A stretch of DNA of 58,590 nt from Actinophytocola xinjiangensis (GTDB taxonomy: Bacteria; Actinomycetota; Actinomycetes; Mycobacteriales; Pseudonocardiaceae): contig NZ_MSIF01000039.1 in assembly GCF_001921215.1 (NCBI RefSeq), positions 1-58,590 on the forward strand. Reading direction: 5' to 3'. This document shows, in pieces, positions 13,293 to 26,635 of the stretch (positions are counted from its first letter, which is position 1; each line of letters starts with the position of its first letter). The position numbers were made by a program, and so were the translations under genes. The notes beneath the pieces were generated by a model that saw only the letters and a program-made list of their open reading frames with translations, had not been told where the DNA came from and did no database searches.

Positions 13293-13302
13293 ACGGACAA
13301 AG

Positions 13303-13781: not shown

Positions 13782-13787
13782 GGTCGG

Positions 13788-14264
13788 GTGACCGAAGCGC
13801 AGGAACAGACACGGTGGCTGAGCCAGCGCGAGATGCGGGCCTGGCGCGCCTACGTGATCGGCAGCGAGCTGCTCCGCAAACAGCTGAACCGAGAGCTGCA
13901 GGACGCCCACGCGACCGCCTTGTCGGACTATGAGGTTCTCGTCCGCCTCTCCGAGCACGAGGGCCGCCGCATGCGCATGGCGCAGCTGGCCACCGAGGTC
14001 GCCAGCTCCAAAAGCCGCCTCTCCCACCAGATCTCCCGCCTGGAAGCCGCCGGCCTGGTCCGCCGAACCGAATGCGGCGACGACGCCCGAGGCGTCTACG
14101 CCGAACTGACCGAACCCGGCATGGCCCGCCTACGCACCATGGCCCCCACCCACGTGGACGGCGTCCGTAGCCACCTCATCGACCTCCTCACCCCCGAGGA
14201 CCAGGAAGCCCTCGCCAACATCTTCGAACGCGTACTCACCCACCTGGATGACCTCGCCCCCTGA
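13788..14264 (+). CDS. MarR-family transcriptional regulator
   Basis: 158 residues from GTG 13788, placed by the leaderless promoter; the longer frame to 13701 adds sequence without similarity to the family. The winged helix is plain: [25 protein letters not shown], then [23 protein letters not shown] as recognition helix and [19 protein letters not shown] as the wing with the Asp-Arg pair of MarR proteins. It ends 22 bp before tRNA-Ser. Its target is not obvious; the nearest divergent gene is far away. Confidence 0.92.
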
Positions 14265-14286
14265 CCCCGACTACCCTGCACCCGAG

Positions 14287-14371
14287 GGAGGCGTGGCAGA
14301 GCGGCCGAATGCACCTGTCTTGAAAACAGGAGTCCTTCACGGGACCGGGGGTTCAAATCCCTCCGCCTCCG
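14287..14371 (+). tRNA. tRNA-Ser (anticodon UGA)
   Basis: Seven-base acceptor GGAGGCG (14287-14293) pairs with CGCCTCC (14364-14370), discriminator G. The anticodon stem-loop CCTGT-CTTGAAA-ACAGG gives UGA, a long variable arm (AGTCCTTCACGGGACC) marks it as serine, and the T loop is TTCAAAT. CCA is not encoded. The 3' part serves as attachment site for element 1. Confidence 0.96.
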
Positions 14372-14372
14372 C
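14319..14372. repeat. attL of element 1 (3' half of tRNA-Ser)
   Basis: 54 bp, from the anticodon loop to two bases past the tRNA, repeated at 25286-25339 with two mismatches. The tRNA remains intact at this end. Confidence 0.93.
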
Positions 14373-14440
14373 TCTCTGACATGCGAAAACAGGTCATTCG
14401 CCCTTCACCCGCACGAGCGCCGAGAGGCACTGTGTTCACG

Positions 14441-14473
14441 GTGTGACAACTCGCGTACCTGAACACGTGTTCA
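14441..14473. repeat. Candidate integrase arm-type sites near attL
   Basis: GTGTGACAAC at 14441-14450 recurs at 25157-25166 next to attR, and TGAACACGTGTTCA (14460-14473) is a perfect palindrome overlapping the end of the integrase gene. Short repeats flanking both att sites are what tyrosine integrases bind. Confidence 0.4.
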
Positions 14474-15847
14474 CGCGCCCTTCTTGGGCTTGTGCGGCAC
14501 CATCGCGGCGGTCGCCTCGGCTGCTGCGGTCGCGACGTCCGGATAGACCGACGTGTACGTGTTCGCGGTCGTCGCCAGCGTCGCGTGGCCTAGCGTCTCC
14601 TGGACGATCTTGATGTCCACGCCACCTGCGAGCATCAGCGACGCCGCGCCGTGTCGTAGGTCGTGCAGACGGATGGGCGGAAGGTCGCACTTCTCGATCA
14701 GGCGCGCGAACTCGTCCGAGACCCACTCCGGGTTCAGCGGCTCGCCGTTCGCCTGGGTGAAGACCTTTCCCGAGTCGACCCACGCCTCACCCCACGCCAG
14801 GCGCTCCTCGATCTGGCGCTTGCGGTGCGCGGCGAATGCGTCCACGGTGCCCTCGTCCAGGGCGATCACTCGTCCGCCCGCCTCGGACTTGGGCGTGTCC
14901 TCGATGATCACGCCGTCCACGTTCACGCGCTGGCGCTCGATCGTGGCGGTCCTCGCCTTCTTGTTGAAGTCGTGCCACTCCAGCCCGCACGCCTCGCCAC
15001 GCCGGGTGCCCCGATGCGACAGGAACCGCCACAGCGCGTACATCCGGTCATCCGCGAAGTGGTCGAGAAAGACCGCGAGATGGTCAGGTCGCCACACCAT
15101 CACCGGGCACGGTGCGGGCGTGAGATCGCGGGCACGCGCGTACGACGTGCCCTCAGCGACCAGCGCGGCGACCTTCTCGCGCCAGCGCTCCTCGCGCTCG
15201 ACCGTCCACACCAGCGGCTTCGGTGACTTCCCGCTGGGCAGCTTCACGAGGGAGGCGACGTTCACCGACACGAGGCCCTCCCGCACGGCGTCTGAGAGCG
15301 CCGTGCGGAGCGTCGCGCGTATGCGTTGCATGGACGACGCGCCGACGATGCGGACGCGCCTGGTTCGCTTCAGGCGCCCCTTTCGCACCTGCTCGTTGCG
15401 CTCGCTGATCGCGTCGAACACAGCGGCGACGTGCGCCACCCGCAGATCGCCCAGGCGACGGTGCCCCAGGTGTGGTTCCCAGTACCGATCAATGTGCCCG
15501 GTGTAGAGAGCGACGGTCTTGGGCTTGACGTCGGTCTTGCCGTTGATCCACTCCCGGAGATAATCGCCCACGGTGAGGCGGTCGTTGACGATGATTCCCT
15601 TGGCTGCCTTCGCCTTGACCGCGTCCATGGCGTTCTGCGCCTCGGTCGACGAGGTGAACCCGCCCCTGATCATCCGGTTCTTCTTGCCGCCCACCCCCTC
15701 CACGTCGAGCCCGAAGTACCACGTGCCGTGGCGCGGGTTCCACGCACCGTCCGGCCGCTTGAGCTTCGGACATGACCGCCCGAGTTGACGACGCTTGCCG
15801 TCCACGACATGGGTACACCCGCACCGCTTGAACACTGAGCCTTTCAC
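14471..15847 (-). CDS. int: Tyrosine site-specific integrase of element 1
   Basis: 458 residues. Catalytic domain residues are in place: Arg in SHRGTRRGEACGLEW, the HDLRHGAASLML box, the second His in LGHATLATTANTY, and the nucleophile region NTYTSVYPDV. The N-terminus has a Cys-rich KRCGCTHVVDGKRR and RSCPKLKRPDG segment that looks like a zinc-binding arm-site domain, then an AP2-like and SAM-like core-binding region (TVGDYLREWINGKTDVKPKTVALYTGHIDRY). The gene ends about 100 bp from attL and faces it, the usual arrangement. ATG 15847 has GAAAGGAAC upstream. Confidence 0.96.
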   Translation of the reverse strand: MKGSVFKRCGCTHVVDGKRRQLGRSCPKLKRPDGAWNPRHGTWYFGLDVEGVGGKKNRMIRGGFTSSTEAQNAMDAVKAKAAKGIIVNDRLTVGDYLREWINGKTDVKPKTVALYTGHIDRYWEPHLGHRRLGDLRVAHVAAVFDAISERNEQVRKGRLKRTRRVRIVGASSMQRIRATLRTALSDAVREGLVSVNVASLVKLPSGKSPKPLVWTVEREERWREKVAALVAEGTSYARARDLTPAPCPVMVWRPDHLAVFLDHFADDRMYALWRFLSHRGTRRGEACGLEWHDFNKKARTATIERQRVNVDGVIIEDTPKSEAGGRVIALDEGTVDAFAAHRKRQIEERLAWGEAWVDSGKVFTQANGEPLNPEWVSDEFARLIEKCDLPPIRLHDLRHGAASLMLAGGVDIKIVQETLGHATLATTANTYTSVYPDVATAAAEATAAMVPHKPKKGA

Positions 15848-15919
15848 AGTGAGTTCCTTTCTCCAGATACGACGATGGCCCCGTTTCCGGGGCCGATCGG
15901 TAAGACTTGAGCGGGCTTC

Positions 15920-16363
15920 TTAGCGTTGTTTCTTGCTGAGACTCATCGCCTGACCAACTTGGATTCCCAGCGTGGCGGCGCGGTCGGTCGCGGCGCTGAG
16001 GTTGTCCGCGAGATCGGCTAGTGCCTCCTGCATGTCGCGGAACACCTCGCGCGCGGGCTGGCTCGGCAACGTTGCCTCGGCCAGCGCGGAGCGGGGAAGC
16101 TTCGCCGTGCTCGGCATCTCGACCTCGCGCACCTCGACGGGCGGCGTCAGCAGGTGCTCGACCGGCACGTCCAGCACGTGCGCGAAGGCCACCAGCTCGG
16201 CCGCAGTGAAGGCGCGCTTTCCCTGCTCGGCGGACCACACCGCCTGCCGGGACCACTCGCCCTTCAGCCACTCGCCGAGACGTTTGCCCAGCTCAGCTTG
16301 CGATAGGCCGCGCTGCTCCCTCGCTGCGGCAACGCGAGACCCGATCACTTCCTCAAGCTTCAT
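15920..16363 (-). CDS. XRE-family repressor of element 1
   Basis: 147 residues. The N-terminal helix-turn-helix reads GSRVAAAREQRGLSQAELGKR followed by WSRQAVWSAEQGKRAFTAAELV, then an acidic linker and a C-terminal helical stretch (REVFRDMQEALADLADNL) suited to dimerisation. It is cotranscribed with or upstream of the integrase and divergent from the excisionase-like operon, the position of Stl/CI-type master repressors. The intergenic region carries GTGTCAA/TTGACAC repeats, likely its operators. Confidence 0.88.
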   Translation of the reverse strand: MKLEEVIGSRVAAAREQRGLSQAELGKRLGEWLKGEWSRQAVWSAEQGKRAFTAAELVAFAHVLDVPVEHLLTPPVEVREVEMPSTAKLPRSALAEATLPSQPAREVFRDMQEALADLADNLSAATDRAATLGIQVGQAMSLSKKQR

Positions 16364-16407
16364 CCCGCCTCCGTTGTCATTGTCATTCTTACTTGTCTCC
16401 TTCTACA

Positions 16408-16456
16408 TTGACACCACTCGCGCCGCGTGTCAACGTGTGACACGTCAACGTCAAAC
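16408..16456. promoter_or_regulatory. Divergent operator region between repressor and excisionase-like operon
   Basis: TTGACAC (16408-16414), GTGTCAA (16427-16433) and GTGTGACACGTCAACGTCAA form clustered direct and inverted copies of one heptamer, in the 128-bp gap between divergent genes. TTGACA on the plus strand and on the minus strand can serve as -35 boxes, so repressor binding would cover both promoters. Confidence 0.6.
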
Positions 16457-16491
16457 ATGACGGTTGGCTTCTGGGAGTACAGGAGAACGAC

Positions 16492-16932
16492 GTGACCAGC
16501 ACACAGCGAAAGATCAATCTGAGCCGGGAGGAGTTGCTAGCCCTACCCACGGCCGTGGACCTAGTGACTGCGGCGAACGCGCTCGGCATCTCGCGTACCA
16601 AGGCGTACAGGATGGCCAGGTTCGAGGAGTTCCCCGTCCCGGTGCTCAGGCTCGGCAACAGTTACCGCGTTCCTACGGCCCCACTGCTGCGGTTCCTCGG
16701 CATAGATCCCGACGAGTCTGCACACGACGCGAACACACCACACCCGACCACGGACGGAGAGGCGGACAACTCACCGAACATCAGGCGCGTGCTGGACTTC
16801 TCGGAGCCGGTCTACCTGAAGGCCAAGAGCGGAAAGCACGTCAGGATCGACCCCGACAAGTCCTACACGTACAAGGGTCGTCGCGGCGTGTCCGGTGCCG
16901 AGATCATCGAGGAGCGGAGGCGGGCGCGGTGA
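16492..16932 (+). CDS. Excisionase-like helix-turn-helix protein
   Basis: 146 residues from GTG 16492, with CAGGAGAAC upstream. The core is a MerR/Xis-type DNA-binding element: AVDLVTAANALGISRTKAYRMARFEEFPVPVLRLGNSYRVPTAPLLRFLG, where the sequence names the helix, the wing and the typical R(V)P end. A C-terminal extension (FSEPVYLKAKSGKHVRIDPDKSYTYKG) is longer than in plain excisionases and reads beta-rich. First gene of the rightward operon; its stop overlaps the next start by four bases. It may direct excision, activate the operon, or both. Confidence 0.8.
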   Translation: MTSTQRKINLSREELLALPTAVDLVTAANALGISRTKAYRMARFEEFPVPVLRLGNSYRVPTAPLLRFLGIDPDESAHDANTPHPTTDGEADNSPNIRRVLDFSEPVYLKAKSGKHVRIDPDKSYTYKGRRGVSGAEIIEERRRAR

Positions 16933-17270
16933 CTCCCCGCACGCTCAAGATCCTCGCGTACCTGCACCGCGCGGGTCCGTCGCGTCTGATCGACGTGAGC
17001 CGGGAGGTCGGTCCCGCTCGCTCTAGCGCGCACGCCGCGCTCAGTCGGCTAGAGCGTCGCGGCCTCGTAGTGCACTCAGGACGCGGAGGCGTGTGGTCCC
17101 TCGCGTTCCCGGACATCGACCCGCTCGCCGAGTACGACGCGAGGGTTCCGGGCTACGTGCTCATGGGGTACGCGATCAACGATCGAACGGGCGCGATTGC
17201 GGCGTCTGAGATCGCCCGTACGCGTCTGCGACACGCGCGCTCGTGTGACGACGCGCGGAGGTCACCGTGA
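16929..17270 (+). CDS. Winged-helix DNA-binding protein
   Basis: 113 residues, GTG 16929, translationally coupled (GTGA overlap) to the gene before and the gene after. TPRTLKILAYLHRAGPSRLIDVS and SSAHAALSRLERRGLVVHSG are the helix-turn-helix and wing of an IclR/MarR-like fold. The C-terminal part (LAFPDIDPLAEYDAR) has no recognised domain. Placed between an excisionase-like protein and a replication ATPase, it may be a replication accessory or a regulator of the operon. Confidence 0.75.
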   Translation: MTPRTLKILAYLHRAGPSRLIDVSREVGPARSSAHAALSRLERRGLVVHSGRGGVWSLAFPDIDPLAEYDARVPGYVLMGYAINDRTGAIAASEIARTRLRHARSCDDARRSP

Positions 17271-18682
17271 CGCGCTCAGACAACGGCGTGACCACACCCC
17301 GCCGGCCGAACACGATCGATGACCTTTTTGCGGGCACGACGTCGCCCCCACCTACACCCGAACAGCTCGAAGAACTCAGGCGAAAGGCAAAGGCCAAGCC
17401 GCCCGACCCTGATCAAGAACTGGTGGACGAGATCGTGCGGCGCGGTGAGGTCTTCGACGGAGCCAGGGCCAACATGTCCGATGCGGAGTACGACGACGCC
17501 GTGGCCAACCTGCGACGTGGGTGGGATACCTACCGCGCCAACAAGCAGTTCCGCCGCGCTGTCGAAGATCATGTCATCGAGGTCTTTGACCAGTTAGTCG
17601 AGTCGAACCACGGGCGGAATCCCGCACGCGTCGTGCTCGCCCGAGAGGCGTTCGACGGGAGCGTCTGGGACGACAGCCTGTTGGACATGCCCAGCGTTGA
17701 CGAACCTCTCTGGGGCAGGGGCGACCACCAGCTGTGGACGCCGGGCGACCCTGGGCACTTCTGGGGTCCGTCTGGGGCCTACAAGACCGGTGCGTTCGGC
17801 ATCCCGCTCGCGGCCTTCCGCAGTGGAGCGGCGCAAGACATGCTCGGCCACTCGAATCTGTGGGGGTTCCCGGTGAAGCCCACACAGGGCGGCGTGGCGT
17901 ACCTGGCGTGGGACCGCGAGAGGCAGATTATGAAGATCGCTTCTCGCTACTCGCGCTTCCTGGGCGCGGACCTGAAGGACTACGTCGACTTCATCGGATT
18001 GACTCCCGAGCGGCGAGAGGCGATTCTCGGCAATCCAGCCAGCTTCATCGACTGGCTCCTAGACCACGAGATCGACACTCTCTTTGTGGACTCGTTGCAG
18101 AACGTGGTGGGCATCGAGTACGGCACGGGGCCGCTTCAGCAATACCTAAATTTCCTCAAGCTGTGCTCCCGCGCGGGCATCGAGACGCAGACAATCAACC
18201 ACGCCATCAAGCCGGGTTACTCGAATGGCCAGCAGAATCCCTCGGCCTACCGCGGCTCCCAGGTTATCCAGGACCAGATCGGAACCTCCCTCACCGTCAA
18301 GCGGAAGTCGAACGAGACCGACGAGTACGCCTACCTCACGGTGACCATGGACAAGGCATCCGTCGAGAGCGTCGGCTCCATCTCGCTCAGGTTCGACAAG
18401 GCGCTCGGACACCCCGAGGTCGACGAGGACGCCGAGCCCGAACAGGCGGCCACACCTAACCGCCCTGGACGCAGAAGGCGGCCGTCTCGCGTCCGCGAGG
18501 TGGCAGAGCACATCGAGAACGCGACCGCGCCCGTCCCCACTCGCGGCCTCGGGGCAGTTCTCGGCATGAGCAACGGCACGGCAGGAAAGCTGGTGGATGA
18601 ACTTCGAGAGGGCGGGTACATCGTCCGCTCCGACGACGACAAGGGATGGATTTCCGCCCGACCCTACGGGGACGGCCTGTGA
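17267..18682 (+). CDS. RecA-fold ATPase, RepA-like replication protein
   Basis: 471 residues, GTG 17267, overlapping the gene before by four bases. The Walker A site is FWGPSGAYKTGAFG (a G-P-S-G-A-Y-K-T variant), the Walker B strand is IDTLFVDSLQNVVG, and QTINHAIKPGYSNG with SAYRGSQVIQDQIG follows as the motif 3 region of AAA_25/RepA hexameric helicases. A C-terminal winged helix (TRGLGAVLGMSNGTAGKLVDELREGGYIV) could bind DNA. No primase catalytic motif is seen. The repeat-rich candidate origin starts six bases after its stop codon, which fits a replication role. Confidence 0.85.
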   Translation: MTRSDNGVTTPRRPNTIDDLFAGTTSPPPTPEQLEELRRKAKAKPPDPDQELVDEIVRRGEVFDGARANMSDAEYDDAVANLRRGWDTYRANKQFRRAVEDHVIEVFDQLVESNHGRNPARVVLAREAFDGSVWDDSLLDMPSVDEPLWGRGDHQLWTPGDPGHFWGPSGAYKTGAFGIPLAAFRSGAAQDMLGHSNLWGFPVKPTQGGVAYLAWDRERQIMKIASRYSRFLGADLKDYVDFIGLTPERREAILGNPASFIDWLLDHEIDTLFVDSLQNVVGIEYGTGPLQQYLNFLKLCSRAGIETQTINHAIKPGYSNGQQNPSAYRGSQVIQDQIGTSLTVKRKSNETDEYAYLTVTMDKASVESVGSISLRFDKALGHPEVDEDAEPEQAATPNRPGRRRRPSRVREVAEHIENATAPVPTRGLGAVLGMSNGTAGKLVDELREGGYIVRSDDDKGWISARPYGDGL

Positions 18683-18687
18683 TGCGG

Positions 18688-18865
18688 CGTTATCCTAATT
18701 GCGAGCGTTACGGTAACGCGTTATCGATAACGGTAACGCATCACCCGAGGGGCGTTATCGCGTTATCCGTTATCGCCTCTCATTTATGAGGGCGTAACGA
18801 TAACGAGTAACGCTCGATGCGTCGGTCATCCCTCAAGATCAGCGGATGAATCTCTCAGGATAACG
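18688..18865. other. Iteron-like repeat array, candidate replication origin
   Basis: The 270-bp gene-free gap contains about twelve copies of GTTAYC or its complement GRTAAC in 180 bp. Examples: CGTTATC at 18688, the palindromes CGTTACGGTAACG (18706-18718) and CGTTATCGATAACG (18719-18732), three head-to-tail CGTTATC copies at 18753, 18761 and 18768, and CGTAACGATAACGAGTAACG (18793-18812), with a last GATAACG at 18859. It is A/T-richer than its surroundings. The location just behind the RecA-fold ATPase suggests an iteron origin. Confidence 0.75.
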
Positions 18866-18916
18866 CTGTCGCGTGCGCTTCCCGCTTGAAAGATGATTCG
18901 CTCACGCCGTCGAATG

Positions 18917-18944
18917 TAGAATGACGTGCACGCCGCAAGGAGGA
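18917..18944 (+). promoter_or_regulatory. -10 element TAGAAT and ribosome site AAGGAGG
   Basis: TAGAAT at 18917-18922 and a strong AAGGAGG at 18938-18944 precede ATG 18953. The -35 is not clear. It marks a new transcription unit after the repeat array. Confidence 0.5.
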
Positions 18945-18952
18945 ACCCCTAA

Positions 18953-19138
18953 ATGGAAGACTACGTCGAGTTCGAATCTGACAGCGGTCGAACGGTTCGC
19001 CTACCTGAGTCGGATATGTGCCCCGACTGCACCACGCCGAGGGTTCAGGTAGATATCAGGACCGGTCAGGTGTGGAGCCTGATACATGATTCCTCGTGCC
19101 CGAACAGGCACGCGGCTCTCTACGCGGAGGAGCGATGA
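18953..19138 (+). CDS. Small protein with Cys pair (possible zinc knuckle)
   Basis: 61 residues behind a strong ribosome-binding site. MCPDCTTPRVQVDIRTGQVW holds a CxxC pair, and a later Cys and His (SSCPNRHAALY) could complete a zinc site. A beta-rich N-terminus (YVEFESDSGRTVRLPESD). Such small Cys-pair proteins are frequent in actinophages; no function is assignable. It overlaps the next gene by four bases (ATGA), indicating coupling. Confidence 0.7.
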   Translation: MEDYVEFESDSGRTVRLPESDMCPDCTTPRVQVDIRTGQVWSLIHDSSCPNRHAALYAEER

Positions 19139-19368
19139 CCCCCGACTACGACCCGGACGAGATCGTCGTCAGGTCTACTGAGGACCGCAGGCCCCGCAGC
19201 GAGTACGACCCGGCCCCGCCCACGCCAGCGGGCCGGATTCAGCCGCGCGAGGCGAGCGACCAGTACCGCACCCTGCGCGACGTCTACTCCGTGGACCGCG
19301 ACGAGGGTGTGGGAGAACCGAATCGTCCGCGCCGACCCTCGCGACGATCTCGCATTGAGAATGGGTGA
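19135..19368 (+). CDS. Small basic hypothetical protein
   Basis: 77 residues from ATG 19135, overlapping the stop of the gene before. The sequence is charged and Pro/Arg-rich (TEDRRPRSEYDPAPPTPAG; NRPRRPSRRSRIENG), probably disordered and able to bind nucleic acid. The promoter of the putative small RNA lies inside its last codons. No family recognised. Confidence 0.6.
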   Translation: MTPDYDPDEIVVRSTEDRRPRSEYDPAPPTPAGRIQPREASDQYRTLRDVYSVDRDEGVGEPNRPRRPSRRSRIENG

Positions 19369-19484
19369 CCCGCGACGTAGAATGGCGTTGCGTTCTCAGC
19401 GGGACCGCATGGTGAAGTTCATCCTTCCTGTTTGGACGGCAAGGCCCTGAACCTGATCTCTGGTCGTCGGGTTCGGGGCTTTGT
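19355..19484 (+). ncRNA. Candidate small RNA or attenuated leader of element 1
   Basis: A good sigma-70-type promoter, TTGAGA (19355-19360), 17 bases, TAGAAT (19378-19383), is followed about 95 bases later by an intrinsic-terminator hairpin: GCCCTGAACC (19444-19453) pairs with GGTTCGGGGC (19470-19479), ten pairs with one G-T, then TTTGTC. The transcript would run from about 19390 to 19484. Inside it ATG 19411 opens a 13-codon frame (MVKFILPVWTARP) whose stop lies in the left arm of the hairpin, so a leader-peptide attenuator is an alternative to a free small RNA. Confidence 0.5.
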
Positions 19485-19840
19485 CATGGACGCCTGATTA
19501 CTGGTCAGATGTGCCGCCCGTTTCCGCACCTCGGATTACCCATGATCAGAGTGTGTCGACCCGCGTTCGCGCCCGTGTCGCCGACGTTCACCGATCGTGC
19601 GACGACCAAGCGCCGTTGGAGAGTCCTCATTTCATCTGTGAGCGTCCGTCATGCGCGCCGACGAGTGATTATGCCATCGCGACACCCAGAGACCGCACGG
19701 GCGATCCAGGGACGTCGCTCGATCCCGCAATTCCCCGTCTGCGTAGCGGGGAAATGCTCGGCAAAACCCTTATGGATTGCGAACTTTCGCGCGTCGGTGC
19801 AATTATCGCTGGTCAGGAGAAATGAAGCAGGGATGAGGCG
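19485..19840. other. Gene-poor stretch in element 1
   Basis: Two overlapping frames are open here (19481-19825 and 19509-19952) but neither has a ribosome site, plausible composition or recognisable sequence. A 7-bp hairpin TTCCCCG (19731-19737) / CGGGGAA (19747-19753) is the only structure seen. Confidence 0.4.
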
Positions 19841-20032
19841 ATGGGCGCGAGAGGCAAGATCACTCAGTACGGCAGCCGCGTTGTCGTCCGCTTCCCGCGG
19901 GGTGTGGAGGCACAGTTGCGCATTCTCGCGTCCACGGAAGGGCTATCGATAGCCGGACTGATTCGGCAGATGGTGGTCGAAGGTCTCGCCGCGAGGCAGA
20001 GCCGGCCAGCCGGAGCTGAAAGGGATGGGTGA
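19841..20032 (+). CDS. Ribbon-helix-helix DNA-binding protein
   Basis: 63 residues. The pattern VVVRFPRGVEAQLRILASTEGLSIAGLIRQMVVEGLAA is a classic Arc/CopG ribbon (VVVRFP) followed by two helices, with a short tail. GCAGGGATGAGG lies upstream of ATG 19841. Likely a small repressor controlling the gene that follows with a four-base overlap. No toxin partner of the usual kinds is adjacent, so this is not obviously a toxin-antitoxin pair. Confidence 0.8.
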   Translation: MGARGKITQYGSRVVVRFPRGVEAQLRILASTEGLSIAGLIRQMVVEGLAARQSRPAGAERDG

Positions 20033-20559
20033 TGGAGTACAGCACGAACGCTAAGGCTGCGCGGTCCCGGCTTCGCAGGGCCAGCCGAGCCGTAGACCGA
20101 GACCTCAACATCGTCTACGACAAGCCAGTCAGCGAGTGGGACTTTGACGAGTTGCAGCGCGGTAGGCCGAGAGGCCCCGACGGGAAGTTCCGCACCGGCC
20201 CGCGCCCGAAGTGGATTACCGACGCGGTAATGGCCGAGGCGCGAAAGCGGCTCAAGACCTTGGCGCGTGATCGCCTTGGCATGTACGCAGGGGCGGCCAT
20301 CGACTTCCTGAAAGACCTGATGGAAGACGACCGCGTAGACGAGAACGGCAGGCCGATCACGCCGAACAGCGTCAAGTTGCAGGCGGCTACGTATCTGCTT
20401 GACCAGATCGTCGGCAAGTCGATCACCCACGTCGAACTCGAAGGGTCGGTGAACCTCCGTCACCTGATGGCGACAGTGATGGTCAATCCGGACGGCGAGG
20501 AATCTCACCCGGTGGTCGGACCAACGACTGAAGAAGAGGAGATGACCGATGACGCATAA
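20032..20559 (+). CDS. Phage terminase-small-subunit-like protein
   Basis: 175 residues from ATG 20032 (GTG 20029 also possible; AAAGGGA is better spaced for the ATG). The order of elements resembles actinophage small terminases: an N-terminal basic helix, SEWDFDELQRGRPRGPDGKFR, then PKWITDAVMAEARKRLKTLA, AAIDFLKDLMEDD, and the closing SVKLQAATYLLDQIVGKSITHVEL. Small terminases recognise pac/cos DNA and recruit the large subunit. In a satellite without a large terminase this would redirect a helper phage packaging motor, as TerS does in PICIs. The assignment is by motif pattern only. Confidence 0.5.
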   Translation: MEYSTNAKAARSRLRRASRAVDRDLNIVYDKPVSEWDFDELQRGRPRGPDGKFRTGPRPKWITDAVMAEARKRLKTLARDRLGMYAGAAIDFLKDLMEDDRVDENGRPITPNSVKLQAATYLLDQIVGKSITHVELEGSVNLRHLMATVMVNPDGEESHPVVGPTTEEEEMTDDA

Positions 20560-20719
20560 GCCCGCTAACGCCGAGACGCGGCAGTACCAGCTCGACAAGG
20601 CGTACCAGGCACTCAGCACCTTGGAGGGTGTGGTCACCGAGGCCGAGGTACGCGAGCGGCGCATGGACGCCGCGCCCAGGATCGACGCGAGCCGCTTTCC
20701 TGCGGCGGAGGGTAGGTAG
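20549..20719 (+). CDS. Small phage-type hypothetical protein, 56 residues
   Basis: ATG 20549 overlaps the end of the terminase-like gene and has GAGGAG seven bases upstream; stop TAG at 20717. The product starts MTHKPANAETRQYQLDK and has one amphipathic helix (YQALSTLEGVVTEAEVRERRM). It ends with two bases to spare before the next gene, so it is part of the packed operon. Function unknown. Confidence 0.7.
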   Translation: MTHKPANAETRQYQLDKAYQALSTLEGVVTEAEVRERRMDAAPRIDASRFPAAEGR

Positions 20720-20721
20720 AG

Positions 20722-21270
20722 ATGACTCACCCCGGATTCTCGTCGGGCCGACTGTCGGCCATGCGCGAGGTGCTGGACGAGGTGCCCATGGGCGACCGTG
20801 ACCGGCAGATCGTCGCGTCCGCCATCGGCGAGATCGAGGCGCACTGGCAGACCCAGCACCGCGAGCGGTACGACCAGGCCGTAGCCACCCGCGACGAGCA
20901 GCACCAGCAGGTGATGAGCAGCGCGCAGGAGTTCCGCTCCCGCGTGGATGACGTGGCCGACGCCGTGCGTAGCGGTCGGATGCCCGCTGCCGAGGCGCGC
21001 GCCTGGGTTCGCGACGCCATGGGCGAGCTGAAGCGCTACGCCGAGCAGCACGACGGGATCACGCAGGCCGACGAGCACCTGACCGCGTTCGAGGCCCTGA
21101 CGCCCGAGGCGTACCAGGAACAGCTCTACGCCCGCATGCCCACGCTGGAGCAGGCCGCGCCCACGCTGGCGGCGAAGGTGGACGAGTACCTGACTGCTCA
21201 CCCGCGCGGGACCCGTGGACCGCAGCCCGAGGGACCGATGGCGCTCAACCGGCACCCAGGGAGGCGCTGA
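20722..21270 (+). CDS. Helical hypothetical protein, possible scaffold-like
   Basis: 182 residues, almost entirely helical by composition: MREVLDEVPMGDRDRQIVAS, a Gln/Glu/Arg-rich coiled coil (YDQAVATRDEQHQQVMSSAQ) and repeated acidic helices. GGTAGGTAGAG precedes ATG 20722. No family recognised. Its place after a terminase-like gene, and its helical composition, are reminiscent of scaffold or capsid-size-determining proteins of satellites, but that is speculation from position alone. Confidence 0.7.
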   Translation: MTHPGFSSGRLSAMREVLDEVPMGDRDRQIVASAIGEIEAHWQTQHRERYDQAVATRDEQHQQVMSSAQEFRSRVDDVADAVRSGRMPAAEARAWVRDAMGELKRYAEQHDGITQADEHLTAFEALTPEAYQEQLYARMPTLEQAAPTLAAKVDEYLTAHPRGTRGPQPEGPMALNRHPGRR

Positions 21271-21387
21271 ACCCCCACACCTGCCTTCGCGTGCTGGTGC
21301 ACCCGTTCGTGTAGTGGGACAGCGTGTCCTACCTTCTCAAGATCAAGTTTTCTTAGCGTCATGGGTGAACGCAAGGAGCGCACCCGC

Positions 21388-21768
21388 ATGAACACGGAAC
21401 TCGACTACTGGCTCGAAAAGCTGCGCCACGAGCGGTGGACGTTGCACGGAGGCCCCGACCTGAAGCGGCCGGAATGGCTCGCCGCGCACTACGCGTGGCA
21501 GGACTGCGCGGACGTGGTGATCATCCGCAGCGAGACGTCGGCCGTGGCGTTCCGCACGCCCACCGACGAGAACACCGACGTGCTCAACCCGGAGTACGTG
21601 ACGTGGGTCTACGGCGACGACAAGTCAGCGGTGTGGGTGCTCCGCGCGGCTCTGTCGCTTCCCCGGCCCGGCTCGCAGCACGAGTCCATTCAGTGGATGA
21701 AGGCCCCGCCCATGTGCCGCATCTCGCCTGAGGGCCGAGTGCCCGTGACCATGCGTCCGCTCCGGTAA
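21388..21768 (+). CDS. Hypothetical protein, 126 residues
   Basis: ATG 21388 is chosen because AAGGAG (21373-21378) is well placed; ATG 21361 upstream in frame lacks a ribosome site. The N-terminus is TELDYWLEKLRHERWTLHGG, followed by a mixed alpha/beta region with VVIIRSETSAVAFRTPTDENTD and WVLRAALSLPRPG. No membrane segment. Unrecognised; a stem-loop terminator follows at 21811. Confidence 0.7.
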   Translation: MNTELDYWLEKLRHERWTLHGGPDLKRPEWLAAHYAWQDCADVVIIRSETSAVAFRTPTDENTDVLNPEYVTWVYGDDKSAVWVLRAALSLPRPGSQHESIQWMKAPPMCRISPEGRVPVTMRPLR

Positions 21769-21810
21769 GACCCGGCAGGGTCGACGTCCCCCGACCGTCG
21801 ATTCTGTCGC

Positions 21811-21845
21811 GTGCCCCGGCTGTTCCCCTCGAATGGCCGGGGCAC
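21811..21845 (+). terminator. Hairpin terminator
   Basis: GTGCCCCGGC (21811-21820) pairs perfectly with GCCGGGGCAC (21836-21845) across a 15-base loop, 42 bp after the preceding stop codon. No T tract. Confidence 0.7.
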
Positions 21846-22011
21846 ATCCATGAGGTAACCTGTGTCGATCACAGCCATGCGACCTGCGTGGCCCCACACA
21901 GAGAGACACCGGATGCGCCGTCTAGATAGCTGATCCACGAGCTCCCGCTCGGGACGGCTTCTGCCTGTTGTTGGTACTTGCAGCAGGTGAGGTGTGTCTG
22001 GAGGTCGGGTC

Positions 22012-22263
22012 GTGGGCAGTTGGGTGCAGGTCGGCAGTACCGTCGGTATCGGCCTCTGTGCCGTGTTGCTGCTGCAGTGGGCCCTGTTCATCGGCCTGTC
22101 TATCTGGTCGATGGCCACGAAGTGCGCCGATCGTCGAAAGCACGCGCTGGCGCTGATCGGCCTGCTTAGACGGGTTGGTCCGCCGCTCCCCAGGCTGCCT
22201 AAACAGTCCGGCCCGGCGTCTGAAGGTGGTGAATCACCCGATGACGCATCAGACGACGCCTGA
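22012..22263 (+). CDS. Small single-pass membrane protein
   Basis: 83 residues from GTG 22012, preceded by CTGGAGG. A membrane helix (VGIGLCAVLLLQWALFIGL) occupies about residues 9-30, followed by a basic cytosolic segment (KCADRRKHALALIGLLRR) and a polar tail ending in DDASDDA. Small membrane proteins in satellites or prophages can act in superinfection exclusion or lysis; nothing here settles that. Confidence 0.6.
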   Translation: MGSWVQVGSTVGIGLCAVLLLQWALFIGLSIWSMATKCADRRKHALALIGLLRRVGPPLPRLPKQSGPASEGGESPDDASDDA

Positions 22264-22302
22264 TCCACACCACGTCAGACGACGTGTGTTCAGGGTGTGT
22301 CG

Positions 22303-23502
22303 TCAGGCCGTGCGCGTGACGCCGATCCGCTCGGCAAGCTCGCGAAGACGGGTGGACTTCCGTGCTTCGCGGGCCAACAGCTCACGGGTGACGTACTTGA
22401 CCAGCGTCTGGTGCTGCATCCAGTCGGGCGCCATGCCCTCTGTCGCGAGCAGCAGGTTCAACGCCTTGTCGTCCTCGCCGAGTCGGGTGTGGGCGAACGC
22501 GCGGTCGGTCATGTGCCGGGCCCGTGCGGCGAGGGGTAGACCTGGTTCGCTTGGCATCGCCCCGGCGTCCCGCAGCGCGGCGGCGTAGTCCTCAGTCACG
22601 ACACCGACGTCCACCGTCTGCATGACGACCTGAGACGGTCCAAACGGCGTCTCGTAGTCGTTGCGATCCACACCCACCCGCGCGGCGACCTCGCGTGACT
22701 CGTTCAGCAGGTCACGGGCTCGACTGGCGTTGTTGCCTCGCGCGTTGGCGGTGGCCGCGCTGATGATCAGTGAGCCGAACACCGACAGATGATCTGCACC
22801 CGCGTCCCCGGTGGGTTCGATGGACTGGGCGGTGCGCGTGGCTACTCGCTCGGCCTCGTCGAACCGACCTTGGACCAGCAGCTGCCACGACACCGATCCG
22901 CGCAGGGCCGCGCTCAGCAGCTCGTCGTCCGCCGTGTTGGCCAGCTCGACCGCGCGACGCACGGCCATGAACGCGGCGTCTTGCTGCCTCATGTGCGCGA
23001 GCGTGCAGCCCGCCACCCAGTACACGCGGGACAGCGCGTCGGCGGCCATCGGACGGTCGCTCAGATTCGCCTCGTGGAGAGTCGCGCGGGTGCCTGCGAG
23101 CGCGGGCGGGATCAGGCCGGCTAGCGAGTCGAACTTGCCTGACCAGTACGTTCCCCACAGATAGGTGACGGTTCGTCGCGCCTCGTCGAGTGGCAGGGGG
23201 TCCGCGTCAAGGCCGCCGAGCAGGTCATCCACGTCAGAGACTGCGCGGCGGAGGGCGACCACACCCGCGTCAGGGCCAGCGTCGGGCAATGCCTCGCGGC
23301 CGAACAGCTCGCCCAGGTCCACGTCCAACGCGCGAGCGATGCGGTGCAGGCTGGCAACGCTGGCGGTGTGGCGCTGCCCCTGCTCCAGCTTGCGGATCAG
23401 GCTCACGTCCACGCCAGCCGCGGTGGCAAGTTCCTGCTGGGTCATCCACCCGTTGCGCAGCTCGCGGATGCGTTCGCCGATGGTGTTCGCGCGAGTCGTC
23501 AT
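22303..23502 (-). CDS. XRE helix-turn-helix regulator with TPR-like C-terminus
   Basis: 399 residues from ATG 23502 (GAAGGG upstream). N-terminal Xre domain: TIGERIRELRNGWMTQQELATAAGVDVSLIRKLEQGQRHTASVASLHRIARALDVDLGELFG, read as five helices. The long C-terminal region has repeated helical hairpins (CTLAHMRQQDAAFMAVRRAVEL, LVQGRFDEAERVATRTAQ, RLGEDDKALNLLLATEGM), as in the Streptomyces-type XRE-TPR regulators that sense peptides or partner proteins. It is divergent from the AbiGi-like gene and may regulate it. The longer M at 23511 is less well spaced. Confidence 0.85.
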   Translation of the reverse strand: MTTRANTIGERIRELRNGWMTQQELATAAGVDVSLIRKLEQGQRHTASVASLHRIARALDVDLGELFGREALPDAGPDAGVVALRRAVSDVDDLLGGLDADPLPLDEARRTVTYLWGTYWSGKFDSLAGLIPPALAGTRATLHEANLSDRPMAADALSRVYWVAGCTLAHMRQQDAAFMAVRRAVELANTADDELLSAALRGSVSWQLLVQGRFDEAERVATRTAQSIEPTGDAGADHLSVFGSLIISAATANARGNNASRARDLLNESREVAARVGVDRNDYETPFGPSQVVMQTVDVGVVTEDYAAALRDAGAMPSEPGLPLAARARHMTDRAFAHTRLGEDDKALNLLLATEGMAPDWMQHQTLVKYVTRELLAREARKSTRLRELAERIGVTRTA

Positions 23503-23721
23503 CGCGGGCAACCCTTCGTAGGCGGGTGTACGTGTTCAACGTTACCTGCCGCGTCGCCGACGCGACACATGCGCGTTGACCAGCACGTTTGCGGGTGTCT
23601 GGGCGCGTCCGTGGCGCGTCCGCATGTGTGCGCTGGTGTCATCACTACGGCGCGAATGTGCGGACGCCATACGGGCGTGCTGAGTTGTAGCGCGCTGCTC
23701 TTCCCCGACGACACGCTTAAC

Positions 23722-24426
23722 GTGACCCGACTGCGGCCTGCCGATCACCCCGACATGTCAGACTGGCTGACGCACTTCACCGGCCGTGCGCGACCAGCCT
23801 CTAACAACGTGGACGCGCGCATCCGCGAGATGAAGCCCGACCAGCGACTGGACGCCATCCTCGCTGAGGGCGAGTTCCGCCCCGCTGTCACCTACTCGGG
23901 CGGACTTCCTGCGGTGTGCTTCACAGAGAGCAGTGTCGCGGGCGTGGAGTATCTGATTCGAGACTGCGGCTTCCCCCCGTGGGGAATCGTGTTTGATCGC
24001 CAATGGGTATTTGAGCAGGGAGGCGCGCCAGTCTGGTACTACCGGTCCGAAGTTCGTGAGGAGCTATTCCAGTTGTCCGACAGAGTTCGGACCTGGGGCG
24101 TTCGGCTGGACGGCAGCGACGAGATGAAGTCTGACTGGCTGCACGAGCGGGAGTGGCGGATACCGGTCGAGACCGGCACGTTGAAGATCGACCCGGACGC
24201 AGTCGTCGCGACCATCATTGGCGCGCCGGACTGGAAACCGTCGCCGATTGACGTTGTGACAGTTGGATCGGGTCACTACGTCGACATGCTTTCGGGGGAA
24301 CCTTCGACAGACTTGTCAAACCCATACGTCCAAGAGTGGCTTGGTGAGGCTCCCGTCTACCCCGCGTGCTGGGAGGGGAAGGAGCACTGGACCTGGGTCG
24401 ACGGTGAGTTGTGCGTAGTTCCCTGA
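23722..24426 (+). CDS. AbiGi-like protein, candidate phage-defence gene
   Basis: 234 residues from GTG 23722; ATG 23755 in frame would cut a segment (LRPADHPD) that I believe homologues share. The order of motifs matches the family I know as putative abortive-infection protein AbiGi: MSDWLTHFTGR at the start, QRLDAILAEGEF, PAVCFTESSVAGVEYLI, WGIVFDRQWVFEQGGAPVWYYRSE and SDWLHEREWRIPVE near the end. These proteins look like small enzymes with conserved His, Glu and Tyr, but mechanism is unproven. It occupies the accessory end of the element, where PICIs keep defence cargo, and is divergent from an XRE-TPR regulator. Confidence 0.5.
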   Translation: MTRLRPADHPDMSDWLTHFTGRARPASNNVDARIREMKPDQRLDAILAEGEFRPAVTYSGGLPAVCFTESSVAGVEYLIRDCGFPPWGIVFDRQWVFEQGGAPVWYYRSEVREELFQLSDRVRTWGVRLDGSDEMKSDWLHEREWRIPVETGTLKIDPDAVVATIIGAPDWKPSPIDVVTVGSGHYVDMLSGEPSTDLSNPYVQEWLGEAPVYPACWEGKEHWTWVDGELCVVP

Positions 24427-24465
24427 CGAAAGCCCGCCTCGGCGGGCGGGCCTCGTCGTAGCAGA

Positions 24466-24813
24466 TCAGGCGGCGGCGGTCTTGCGCGTCGTCGCGCGGC
24501 GTGCCTGCGGCTTGGGCGCTTCCTCCGCCTCGGTGATCTCCTCGACCTCGTCGTCATCGGCGGGCGCGGGCTCCTCGACCTTCGCGGCGGCCTCCTTGGC
24601 AGCGGCCTTGGCCTCGTCGCGCTCCTTGCGCCAGGTCTCGAAGCGGGTCTTCATCGGCCCGACGTCCTTGGTCTCGAACGCGTAGCGCTTGCCCGACCCG
24701 ACGCCCTGGTAGTCGCTGGACGCGCGCAGGAACACGCGTAGCTCGCGGGGTGTGGTGCCCAGCGCCTCGGCGATCTGCTTGGTGGTCAGAGTCTCGGTCT
24801 TCTTCGCGGCCAT
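24466..24813 (-). CDS. Phage-type helix-turn-helix protein
   Basis: 115 residues, preceded by GAAGGAGG. The N-terminal half, ETLTTKQIAEALGTTPRELRVFLRAS followed by GVGSGKRYAFETKD, matches a short DNA-binding protein common in actinophages; the C-terminal half is an Ala/Lys/Glu-rich coil ending RRATTRKTAAA, which would bind DNA non-specifically. It overlaps nothing and lies 15 bp downstream of the 62-residue gene, so the two form one unit. Confidence 0.75.
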   Translation of the reverse strand: MAAKKTETLTTKQIAEALGTTPRELRVFLRASSDYQGVGSGKRYAFETKDVGPMKTRFETWRKERDEAKAAAKEAAAKVEEPAPADDDEVEEITEAEEAPKPQARRATTRKTAAA

Positions 24814-24828
24814 TCTGATCTTCCTCCT

Positions 24829-25017
24829 TCAGTCGTTGAACAGGTCGTAGTCGTCGGCGAGCGATTCCTCGGTCACGCGGTGAAGGACCTCGCCCGGCGC
24901 GTCCCACTGCTCGATGGTCGATCCGACGCCGAGCACGTCAGCCTCGAAGCGGCAGATGTCGAGTCGCGTGTGGTCGCTGTAGATGTCGCCTTCGGGCGTG
25001 CGGACGATGTATCGCAT
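24829..25017 (-). CDS. Small phage-type hypothetical protein
   Basis: 62 residues from ATG 25017, with AAGGAGG four to five bases upstream; the longer frame to 25047 has no ribosome site. Beta-rich start (MRYIVRTPEGDIYSD) and an acidic end (SLADDYDLFND). Function unknown. It is the last gene before attR and its promoter region overlaps the candidate integrase arm site at 25157. Confidence 0.7.
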   Translation of the reverse strand: MRYIVRTPEGDIYSDHTRLDICRFEADVLGVGSTIEQWDAPGEVLHRVTEESLADDYDLFND

Positions 25018-25156
25018 CGGGGCCTCCTTCGCCTGGTGCGACAGCAACGTAAGACGCGCTGACCAGCGAAGTCAGGCGACGACGACGGACTCCGTGGGAA
25101 GCCGTGACCTTCGCAGCGGGCGGTTCGACCGCTACCGATCATCGGTGTGTGCGCGC

Positions 25157-25166
25157 GTGTGACAAC
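25157..25166. repeat. Candidate arm-type site near attR
   Basis: GTGTGACAAC, identical to 14441-14450 beside attL; same orientation. Confidence 0.35.
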
Positions 25167-25285
25167 GCACGTCCCGACACGGTGCGGCACGGCGCGATAC
25201 GCGGCGGGCGGGAGAGTCGCTCCTACCTGCGTCAGGGGGATACTGTCCGATACGCGGACGCACGGCGCGGATTACCGCACACCGA

Positions 25286-25339
25286 CTTGAAAACAGGAGA
25301 CCTTCACGGGTCCGGGGGTTCAAATCCCTCCGCCTCCGC
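25286..25339. repeat. attR of element 1 / left end of element 2
   Basis: 54 bp matching the tRNA-Ser 3' half at 14319-14372 with two substitutions (A for T and T for A). The 5' half of a tRNA is absent, so this is a duplicated att site, not a gene. It continues into GCATAGCCTGACCAG, which recurs at the right end of element 2. Confidence 0.93.
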
Positions 25340-25356
25340 ATAGCCTGACCAGCAAT

Positions 25357-25422
25357 AACGCCCTCGGTGGGCGTTCGTGTCAGCGCAGGTGTCGTTGGCG
25401 GGGTCTCATTCAGGGTCTCATT
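25357..25422. repeat. Hairpin and direct repeat next to the shared att site
   Basis: AACGCCC (25357-25363) pairs with GGGCGTT (25369-25375), a small stem-loop just behind the att core. GGGTCTCATT occurs at 25401-25410 and 25413-25422, a plausible pair of integrase arm sites. Confidence 0.5.
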
Positions 25423-25706
25423 TGAGTGGCCATGTCCGGTCGTCGAGCGTCATCGGGCTCGGTCTTCGATGAGGTGGCGACTCGGCGAAACCCGGGTGCC
25501 CGTTCGCATCCTGTGGGCCGTTGGTCGGCCGTCGCTGGTTCTCCGGGTGCGGTGCTAAAGATGATCTAGGAACCCCAAGTGGTCACGCGACACGCCATAG
25601 GTTCTCAACCGCGACACGCCGTTGTTGACGTAAGCACCAGGGCTTTCCATGCGATACAAAACCAAACAGGCATGCGACAGACTGTGATAGTCGCAGTTCA
25701 AGAACC
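25423..25706 (+). promoter_or_regulatory. Presumed CRISPR leader
   Basis: No gene with support lies here. The last 130 bases (25580-25706) are A/T-richer than the surroundings, and the degenerate repeat is at the opposite end of the array, so this is the leader side. A defined promoter was not recognised. Confidence 0.55.
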
Positions 25707-26635
25707 GCTGCGCCGGCCCTCCGGGACCGGCGAGGATCGCAACCTCGGACTGCGGACGCTGCTGGTCGACGCCGACAAGGGCTGCGCCGGCCCTCCGGGA
25801 CCGGCGAGGATCGCAACATCGGGCCGTTCACCGCCATGACCGTCATCTCGCTGTTGCTGCGCCGGCCCTCCGGGACCGGCGAGGATCGCAACCTCGGACT
25901 GCGGACGCTGCTGGTCGACGCCGACAAGGGCTGCGCCGGCCCTCCGGGACCGGCGAGGATCGCAACATCGGGCCGTTCACCGCCATGACCGTCATCTCGC
26001 TGTTGCTGCGCCGGCCCTCCGGGACCGGCGAGGATCGCAACCTCGGACTGCGGACGCTGCTGGTCGACGCCGACAAGGGCTGCGCCGGCCCTCCGGGACC
26101 GGCGAGGATCGCAACGAAGAAGATTTCGTCCTCTTCGGACCAGTCCTCATCGTCGCTGCGCCGGCCCTCCGGGACCGGCGAGGATCGCAACACATCACGC
26201 GGATGGACCGCATATAGCATCTGACCTGGCTGCGCCGGTCCTCCGGGACCGGCGAGGATCGCAACAAGCGCGTGGCGGCCTCCGGGAAGGTGGCGGAGCT
26301 TCGCTGCGCCGGTCCTCCGGGACCGGCGAGGATCGCAACACCAGGCTGACCCCCGCAGCCAACGGGGAGTACCGCTGCGCCGGCCTCCGGGACCGGCGAG
26401 GATCGCAACCGCAAGGACAACAGCCTCAAGTGCAACATGGACGATCACCGCTGCGCCGGCCCTCCGGGACCAGCGAGGATCGCAACATCGCCTTGGCCGC
26501 AGCCGCTGACGGTGAAGCCAGGGGCTGCGCCGGCCCTCCGGGACCGGCGAGGATCGCAACACACGCGAGAGCAAGGGCGGGGGCGGCAGCATCGCGACGC
26601 TGCGCCGGCCCAGCAGGACCGGCGCAGCTTTCCAT
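25707..26635 (+). CRISPR. CRISPR array, 13 repeats and 12 spacers, no cas genes nearby
   Basis: The 37-bp repeat begins GCTGCGCCGG, has an internal inverted pair CGCCGG/CCGGCG, and ends GAGGATCGCAAC. Repeats start at 25707, 25781, 25856, 25930, 26005, 26079, 26155, 26229, 26303, 26374, 26450, 26524 and 26599. Spacers are 34-40 bp. Repeats 8 and 9 carry one C-to-T change, repeat 10 lacks one C, repeat 11 has one G-to-A change, and the thirteenth is degenerate, marking the leader-distal end. Spacers 1, 3 and 5 are identical, as are 2 and 4. A 3' end ATCGCAAC as crRNA handle suggests type III or a related type I system; the subtype cannot be fixed without cas genes. Confidence 0.98.

Follow-up and report, generated by a model that had tools for sequence, protein, structure and literature searches.

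The element at positions 14319 to 25339 of the Actinophytocola xinjiangensis window (the whole 58,590-bp stretch of DNA analyzed) is probably a phage satellite in its integrated state, functioning like a phage-inducible chromosomal island (PICI) that encodes a terminase small subunit (TerS), with a layout of the SaPI type. This reading is favored because (i) the att sites lie at a tRNA gene, (ii) the gene order is of the SaPI type, (iii) searches of the element detected no family for structure, lysis, or conjugation, (iv) TerS relatives lie beside the terminase large subunit (TerL) in phages, (v) a helix-turn-helix (HTH) protein co-occurs with TerS, (vi) a related island occupies the same tRNA gene in the genome G115, and (vii) TerL of the phage lineage concerned was not found in the host genome. 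Against it stand the missing PDB fold match for TerS, the lack of a recognized capsid-redirecting or known interference gene, a RepA-like protein without relatives in phages, viral contigs, or plasmids, and the tail and minor-head genes of the G115 island.

Boundaries and gene content of the island

The island of 11.0 kb is bounded by two 54-bp direct repeats that are identical at 52 of 54 nucleotides (96%) and lie 10,967 bp apart, start to start. The left copy forms the 3' part of a tRNA-Ser(UGA) gene, and the genes between the repeats follow the order int-cI/xis-rep-ori-terS. The features are as follows.

14287..14372, plus strand: tRNA-Ser(UGA), integration target (ARAGORN; Rfam tRNA at 14287-14371)
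14319..14372, plus strand: att repeat, left copy, within the tRNA gene
14471..15847, minus strand: tyrosine integrase (PF00589, E 2e-20; phrog_1, E 3.6e-62)
15920..16363, minus strand: cI-like repressor (HTH_31, E 6.3e-10)
16492..16932, plus strand: excisionase-like protein, divergent from the repressor (HTH_17, E 2.8e-5, under the Pfam cut-off)
16929..17270, plus strand: winged-helix protein (HTH_IclR, E 1e-7)
17267..18682, plus strand: RepA-like RecA-fold ATPase (AAA_25, E 4e-4, under the Pfam cut-off; phrog_6012 "DNA helicase," E 1.4e-7)
18688..18865, no strand: iteron cluster, candidate origin
18953..19138, plus strand: small ORF (ORF list only)
19135..19368, plus strand: small ORF (ORF list only; internal start chosen)
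19841..20032, plus strand: small protein, probably ribbon-helix-helix (RHH_5, E 2.7e-6, in one of the 83 ORFs scanned; weak Arc-like PHROG matches)
20029..20559, plus strand: TerS (TerL downstream in 33 of its 38 relatives on viral contigs; tree)
20549..20719, plus strand: 56-aa ORF overlapping terS (from sequence; no PHROG match of note)
20722..21270, plus strand: 182-aa helical protein (single-sequence model, pLDDT 66; no phage match)
21361..21768, plus strand: 135-aa ORF (no phage match at E ≤ 0.01)
22303..23511, minus strand: XRE-type regulator (phrog_5823, E 8.5e-94)
23755..24426, plus strand: accessory gene (present in 8 of 200 family genomes, including its own)
24466..24813, minus strand: HTH protein also present in the TerS-bearing phage lineage (co-occurrence in TerS records)
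24829..25047, minus strand: small ORF (ORF list only)
25286..25339, plus strand: att repeat, right copy

The island was translated in six frames, and its 83 ORFs of 50 aa or more were compared with PHROGs and Pfam at E ≤ 1e-3. None was named by PHROGs as belonging to a head, packaging, connector, tail, or lysis family, and none matched an FtsK, relaxase, capsid, portal, or terminase family in Pfam; TerL was likewise not detected among them. No capsid-redirecting or known interference gene was recognized in the island. An earlier note, made from the sequence alone, had placed the DNA in a Pseudonocardiaceae-type genome, which is the correct family, and had described att repeats, an integrase, a repressor/excisionase switch, and a RecA-fold ATPase on an island devoid of capsid, portal, large terminase, tail, and conjugation genes. 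All of this agrees with the present data. As to the family, two genomes of the same genus show no difference from Actinophytocola gossypii S1-96 and A. xanthii 11-183 in the segments that were aligned.

The excisionase-like protein has 42 matches in phage records, the best of which are annotated "excise" (genes of Gordonia phages). The iterons reported previously are borne out as well, as a candidate origin: the window contains 14 CGTTAYC/GRTAACG sites, 10 of them packed into 178 bp, and at most one site per 220-bp stretch was counted outside the cluster (110-bp sampling steps). Relatives of RepA were found in 2 of 390 family genomes at E ≤ 1e-10 (its own and G362) and in 1 of 396 phylum genomes at E ≤ 1e-15 (its own); none was found in phages, in 72,556 plasmid records, or, by peptide patterns, in viral contigs. 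Replication thus does not appear to be of a known phage type. The G362 loci share with the island RepA and one weak integrase match and were set aside as relatives. A peptide-pattern scan of viral contigs with the integrase gave no relative either.

As to the cargo, the gene at 23755-24426 had been put forward as a defense candidate. Searches of Pfam, PADLOC, and NCBIfam gave no match to it at E ≤ 1, so that this role is unconfirmed. The 182-aa protein (20722-21270) has no phage or viral-contig relative, and to call it a capsid factor would be a guess only.

Identification of TerS

That the protein at 20029-20559 is a TerS is well supported by its sequence family and gene position. Among the 38 relatives on viral contigs, TerL lies downstream on the same strand in 33, and in 24 of these 33 it is no more than 2 kb away. 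In a tree, the island protein nests among the phage TerS proteins of these contigs; the tree leaves out L005, L006, L035, and L047 (near-copies, except for L047, which is a long ORF), and A5 leaves out L013, L035, L036, and L047. Of the curated families, phrog_10899 is matched by 16 of 35 TerS relatives and phrog_2538 by 3 of 35 (E ≤ 0.01); the island protein itself reaches only E 0.22 with curated TerS families. A genome scan with TerS by peptide patterns may have been insensitive and calls for caution.

Family and position thus uphold the earlier assignment as a terminase-small-subunit-like gene, and the structural check proposed with it gave no support. The TerS model retrieved nothing from the PDB at E ≤ 1e-3, with one TerS (G20c) at E 8.5, and similarity of fold was therefore dropped as support. 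In a viral structure library, three matches were obtained at E ≤ 1e-3, namely, two uncharacterized actinophage proteins and one nameless protein.

Candidate helper phages

A second island gene points to the same phages. In a whole-record search, the HTH protein was found in 23 of the 38 viral records with TerS relatives, including 16 of the 17 records of at least 55 kb. Outside this set it is rare: only 2 of 50,697 phage records match at E ≤ 1e-3, both of them TerS matches too, and 1 of 120 family genomes contains it. When viral contigs were scanned for peptide patterns from the HTH protein, no relative appeared; the whole-record search found the 23 that had been missed, and this kind of scan is therefore considered insensitive. 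A tyrosine integrase is present in only 1 of the 38 viral records. The likely helpers are thus phages of the TerS/HTH lineage with genomes of 55 to 68 kb, which are probably virulent.

TerL of this lineage was not detected in the host's own genome in a search that had no internal positive control, and two Terminase_6N matches there fell under the cut-off, with 17.6 and 15.1 bits. For 9 distinct CRISPR spacers compared with the loci, the matches listed outside the array are short, the best by E-value being exact over 14 nt or covering 17 nt with a single mismatch.

Related islands and alternative explanations

The earlier note had suggested a search for the same gene order in related genomes. 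The part from int to rep was recovered: G115, of the same genus, carries at the same tRNA gene and with the same att an island (L077, 1164-17135) whose int, cI, xis, and rep are homologous to those of the present island and identically arranged. The extension to TerS was not, as no match to the island TerS was found there. The G115 island also differs in its size of about 16 kb and in its tape-measure, minor-head, and WhiB-like genes; in a comparison of the tRNA-Ser att site in six genomes of the genus, the element of G115 at this site holds some tail and head genes. Such genes would fit satellites and prophages in decay equally well. At the neighboring MarR gene, eight named genome loci, two of them from Actinophytocola, contained no match to the island proteins (XRE regulator excluded from the query). 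The searches gave no close copy of the island as a whole, and its distribution therefore does not show mobility.

Three alternatives were weighed. It is unlikely that the island is a decayed prophage, i.e., a formerly temperate phage whose late genes were lost, with terS surviving by chance. The cI/xis/int switch is temperate-phage-like, the G115 island retains late genes, and many actinobacterial prophage remnants are small (PMC10023795). However, the att repeats are still nearly identical, no other late-gene fragment occurs in the 83 ORFs, terS is intact and almost as conserved as it is from phage to phage, and the combination of terS, int, and rep is seen again in L057-L060. Furthermore, the phage relatives of TerS mostly lack a tyrosine integrase, which argues that switch and terS did not come from one temperate phage.

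Distinctly improbable is a stationary anti-phage island, in which TerS and the HTH protein would act as decoys that poison packaging or regulation in phages of the lineage, with the island itself not mobilized by these phages. Two genes from one phage lineage, the absence of a recognized capsid-redirecting gene, and the known SaPI-type interference with helper packaging (PMC10690885) all fit this possibility, but int, xis, rep, and the iterons are intact, and a fixed decoy would not need them. Actinomycete integrative conjugative elements also use int, xis, and rep at tRNA genes, and they are defined by a transfer gene of the FtsK/TraB type. That the island is an integrative element spread by conjugation or general transduction, with TerS repurposed as a DNA-binding protein, is nevertheless very improbable: no FtsK/TraB or relaxase family occurs in the 83 ORFs, and neither TerS nor RepA matches any of the 72,556 plasmid records.

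Proposed cycle and comparison with known satellites

The satellite cycle that we infer, comprising induction, excision, replication, TerL capture, packaging, and interference with a virulent helper, would proceed as follows. In the resting state, the cI-like repressor would silence the divergent rightward operon, and infection by a phage of the TerS-bearing lineage would lift this repression. Int and Xis would then excise the island from the tRNA-Ser gene in circular form, with a length of about 11 kb, and RepA would initiate its replication at the iterons (18.7-18.9 kb). Island TerS, together with helper TerL, would steer packaging toward island DNA, which would leave in helper particles. The HTH protein, from the same phage lineage, would most likely read the helper's own regulator or compete with it.

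PICIs have been defined (PMC6092414) by int and divergent regulators followed by rep, ori, and terS in one direction, by the absence of structural and lytic genes, and by a size of about 15 kb, and also by an att site never occupied by prophages, genes common only to PICIs, and helper induction, packaging, and interference. The island agrees with this definition in gene order, in the absence of structural and lytic genes, and in size. It resembles in particular the terS-encoding SaPIs among the PICIs of Gram-positive cocci: int and divergent regulators lie on the left, the genes for replication, the origin, and terS follow in a single direction, structural and lytic genes are absent, and the size is comparable (11 kb against about 15 kb). 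It differs in that it belongs to another phylum, has no recognized capsid-redirecting or interference gene, and has a candidate helper lineage that looks virulent. PICMI (PMC10803314) is likewise small, without capsid remodeling genes, and dependent on a virulent helper, as inferred for the island; PICMI115, however, has no terS homologue and adjoins fis, whereas the island carries terS and lies in a tRNA-Ser gene.

PICIs had been described in the earlier note as poorly described outside Firmicutes and Proteobacteria. This is only partly true, since candidate PICIs of Mycobacterium (PMC10654092) and satellites of Streptomyces (PMC10690885) have been reported, with capsid genes unlike the island. 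The former, including phiRv1 and phiRv2, share with it the phylum Actinomycetota, an integrase, and in some cases a tRNA site or a helicase, but they are defined, like capsid-forming PICIs, by a major capsid gene of their own, of which none was found in the island. The Streptomyces satellites MiniFlayer and MulchRoom also belong to Actinomycetota and have virulent helpers, as the island probably does, but encode a capsid, a portal, and small and large terminases and have no obvious replicase (PMC10690885). Taken together, the best explanation of the sequence data is a PICI-like satellite with SaPI-type layout, a candidate member of the PICIs.

By a count published in 2024 (PMC10803314), just one satellite family besides PICMI had helpers known to be virulent; links to virulent phages have since been made for satellites of Streptomyces (PMC10690885) and of Streptococcus thermophilus (PMC13376191). 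The published actinobacterial satellites and candidates located carry capsid genes, whereas the island has TerS without a capsid. More tentatively, it might represent an actinobacterial satellite class specialized on one virulent phage lineage of 55 to 68 kb, with a captured TerS as packaging selector and a copy of the lineage's often multicopy HTH regulator that senses helper arrival or seizes its transcription; the capsid-free design of int, rep, and TerS might have had several origins within the phylum, involving distant TerS groups. TerS alone and a second gene from the same phage lineage allow a testable helper group to be named from sequence alone. If the satellite reading is true, packaging piracy in the manner of SaPIs occurs in Pseudonocardiaceae and can target virulent phages.

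Boundaries and gene content of the island

The att repeats and the int/cI/xis/rep/terS gene set that the earlier note had claimed for this island were both confirmed. The ends of the element (14319 to 25339) are two 54-bp repeats that are identical at 52 of 54 positions and lie 10,967 bp apart. The left copy forms the 3' portion of tRNA-Ser(UGA) (14287-14372), and the tRNA therefore stays whole after integration. The flank of this tRNA was matched in all six genomes in the genus search, including its own. The search gave only one match in the same-genus genome G031, which therefore has a single repeat copy; further copies lie near the tRNA in G094, G115, and G132 and on another contig in G066. 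In the stretches that were compared, G031 and G066 have the same sequence as Actinophytocola gossypii S1-96 and A. xanthii 11-183, which places the host in the genus Actinophytocola (Pseudonocardiaceae). The tRNA-Ser integration site is a hot spot.

Gene content of the island, from left to right
Left end, minus strand: integrase
After the integrase, minus strand: cI-like repressor
Right of cI, rightward: xis, then a winged-helix protein, then a RepA-like ATPase (17267..18682, plus strand)
Right of the site cluster that follows repA, in this order: small ORFs, a ribbon-helix-helix-like protein, the terminase small subunit (TerS; 20029..20559, plus strand), a 56-aa ORF, and a 182-aa helical protein
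Right end: XRE-type regulator, an accessory gene without a known family (23755-24426), an HTH protein (24466..24813, minus strand), and a small ORF

The start of the RepA-like ATPase gene overlaps the preceding gene. Ten of the 14 CGTTAYC/GRTAACG sites of the whole window are found at 18688-18865, directly after repA, and this cluster would be the natural place for a candidate replication origin. The scan covered every six-frame ORF of the island with at least 50 aa (83 in total): head, packaging, connector, tail, and lysis families were absent from the 24 PHROGs families returned at an E value of ≤1e-3, as were FtsK, relaxase, capsid, portal, and terminase from the 13 Pfam families returned. 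TerS itself had no Pfam match, and its sole PHROG match at an E value of ≤1e-3 is unlabelled. The layout and size of a phage-inducible chromosomal island (PICI) and the absence of structural genes, as previously proposed, held when tested. The accessory gene is present in 8 of 200 family genomes, its own included, and was matched by none of the phages.

A CRISPR array (25707-26628) is located right of the island, with the right att copy on one side and a second integrase on the other; 10 of its repeats match Rfam CRISPR-DR29, and 9 of its 12 spacers are distinct, the first part being duplicated. The region 25340-29654 is a second, apparently decayed element, with a third att-like stretch (29601-29654, 63% identical). 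Its genes are as follows.

26693-28015: integrase (similar sequence beside this tRNA in G094 and beside an att copy in G066)
Excisionase-like gene: TIGR01764, E value of 9e-14
28298-29008: ORF, no NCBIfam family

Identity of the 176-aa island protein

Searched alone, the 176-aa protein matched phrog_7407 (unknown; E value of 4e-6) and, weakly, phrog_10899, labelled terminase small subunit (E value of 0.22). Four of 50,697 phage records were matched: the Curtobacterium phage Shrew at 42% identity, the Microbacterium phages Triscuit and Huwbert at 40%, and the Micrococcus phage Kurnik at 34% (E value of 3e-3). Of the two Microbacterium phages, only Huwbert has the gene annotated as terminase small subunit. 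Among viral contigs, relatives were confirmed for 38 of 82 pattern matches, with identities of up to 51%. On the following sequence evidence, the protein looks like a working phage TerS of this lineage. (i) In a maximum-likelihood tree it is placed inside the phage proteins, together with those of viral contigs L010 and L011 (99/86) and then L014/L017 (98/86). (ii) A homologue of the large terminase subunit (TerL) is encoded downstream on the same strand in 33 of the 38 contigs, a count that includes the contig whose TerL served as the query (this TerL matches phrog_2, E value of 1.4e-30) and a few near-copies; in the other five, the sequence covered ended 2 to 10 kb past the gene. The gap between both genes has a median of 1,177 bp, is below 2 kb in 24 of 33 cases, and reaches 8 kb at most; in Huwbert and Shrew it amounts to 6 to 7 kb. 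A portal homologue is present in 32 of the 38. (iii) Of 35 aligned members, the island protein included, 26 matched phrog_7407, 16 phrog_10899, and 3 phrog_2538 at an E value of ≤0.01, the latter two families being labelled TerS. (iv) Conservation is close to that among phages: in six of six TerS regions, the median island-to-phage identity is 1 to 7 points below the phage-to-phage value (61% versus 68% for residues 32 to 60). The tree position and the TerL neighbourhood thus uphold the claim of a TerS-like gene; the structural match named beforehand as a check was not obtained, the predicted model (pLDDT 80) having no significant PDB match.

An HTH protein common to the same phages

The HTH protein matched 2 of 50,697 phage records at an E value of ≤1e-3, Shrew and Huwbert, both of which belong to the four phages matched by TerS. 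At an E value of ≤10 there were six records, the other four being two Streptomyces phages, each listed twice. Searched record by record, 23 of the 38 viral records with TerS carry the protein, 11 of the 23 in multiple copies; of the 17 that are at least 55 kb long, 16 have it. The E value is more permissive per record than for the whole database; 23/38 and 2/50,697 are therefore not strictly comparable. Among 120 bacterial genomes of the family, searched at an equal limit per genome, only the island's own contained it. The shared core is roughly LGT..r.LRkFLR followed by G.G.RY. Up to four copies per record occur in the lineage (records L010-L047, Shrew, and Huwbert). Since the HTH protein co-occurs with TerS in the same phage records, two island genes trace to one phage lineage, and no other evidence points as strongly to the helper.

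Relatives of the island

A related island is found in G115 (locus L077).

1164-17135: G115 island, between tRNA-Ser and an att copy ~16 kb away

Its homologues are in the same order: integrase (34% over 441 aa), cI (38%), xis (51% over 59 aa), and RepA (28% over 232 aa). Among ten proteins scanned were tape-measure (phrog_2337, E value of 7e-36), minor-head (phrog_556, E value of 4.5e-8), and WhiB-like proteins, and none in this element matched the island TerS; the element could be either a satellite with tail genes or a prophage in decay.

The TerS profile matched 5 of 396 phylum genomes at an E value of ≤1e-5, the island's own and four distant ones. All four distant loci (L057-L060) have a tyrosine integrase, a large, replication-type ORF of 660 to 794 aa, and a TerS-like gene within ~6.5 kb, with an insertion sequence between these genes in L059 and a stop inside the profile match in L058. 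Their TerS-like ORFs matched phrog_7407 in four and phrog_10899 in three cases; primase/helicase families matched several of the 58 ORFs scanned (best 25 of 65 families), and tblastn with queries from viral contig L006 revealed no TerL, portal, or capsid. Possibly, these loci form a wider class of small TerS elements. In the tree, which is midpoint-rooted and has two very long branches, their TerS-like proteins fall with that of Kurnik and separately from the island protein (100/99), so that the int-rep-TerS design likely arose repeatedly.

Candidate helper and proposed cycle

TerS-bearing contigs measure up to 64.6 kb, and the genomes of Shrew, Huwbert, and Triscuit 67.5 to 68.0 kb (Kurnik, 56.3 kb). 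Among the annotated genes of the complete Huwbert and Shrew records are those for DNA polymerase I, primase/helicase, and thymidylate synthase; an integrase is listed in neither. Of the 38 viral records with TerS, many of them fragments, one was matched by a profile for tyrosine integrases, which covers that type only. Scanning genome contigs with two TerS peptide patterns, a search of limited sensitivity, yielded 50 pattern matches, none of which was confirmed as a relative, and the TerL of the lineage was not found in the host genome. We infer that the lineage is mainly virulent. The two genome ends are identical for at least 2.4 kb in Huwbert and at least 4.5 kb in Shrew and are therefore long direct terminal repeats. 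These phages probably cut at a fixed site, to which the island TerS would need to be matched.

If the island works like the PICIs that carry terS (PMC6092414), infection by a phage of the lineage would relieve the repressor, Int and Xis would excise the island, RepA and the iterons would replicate it, and its TerS would recruit the helper TerL. No capsid-redirecting gene was recognised in the island; arithmetically, about five 11-kb copies would fill one helper head.

A survey of actinobacterial prophages suggests that many elements below 15 kb could be satellites (PMC10023795). Satellites of Streptococcus thermophilus are inducible by virulent phages (PMC13376191). In Mycobacterium, an integrase together with a major capsid gene served to define candidate PICIs (PMC10654092), whereas the island is capsid-free; satellites from Streptomyces encode a capsid, a portal, and the small and large terminases (PMC10690885), whereas the island has TerS only, no capsid, portal, or TerL family having been found; and PICMI115 is without terS (PMC10803314), unlike the island. 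In the openly accessible literature on phage satellites, our searches revealed no island from this group of bacteria that has TerS and lacks a capsid. Within the limits of sequence evidence, the reading of the element as a PICI-like satellite is supported.
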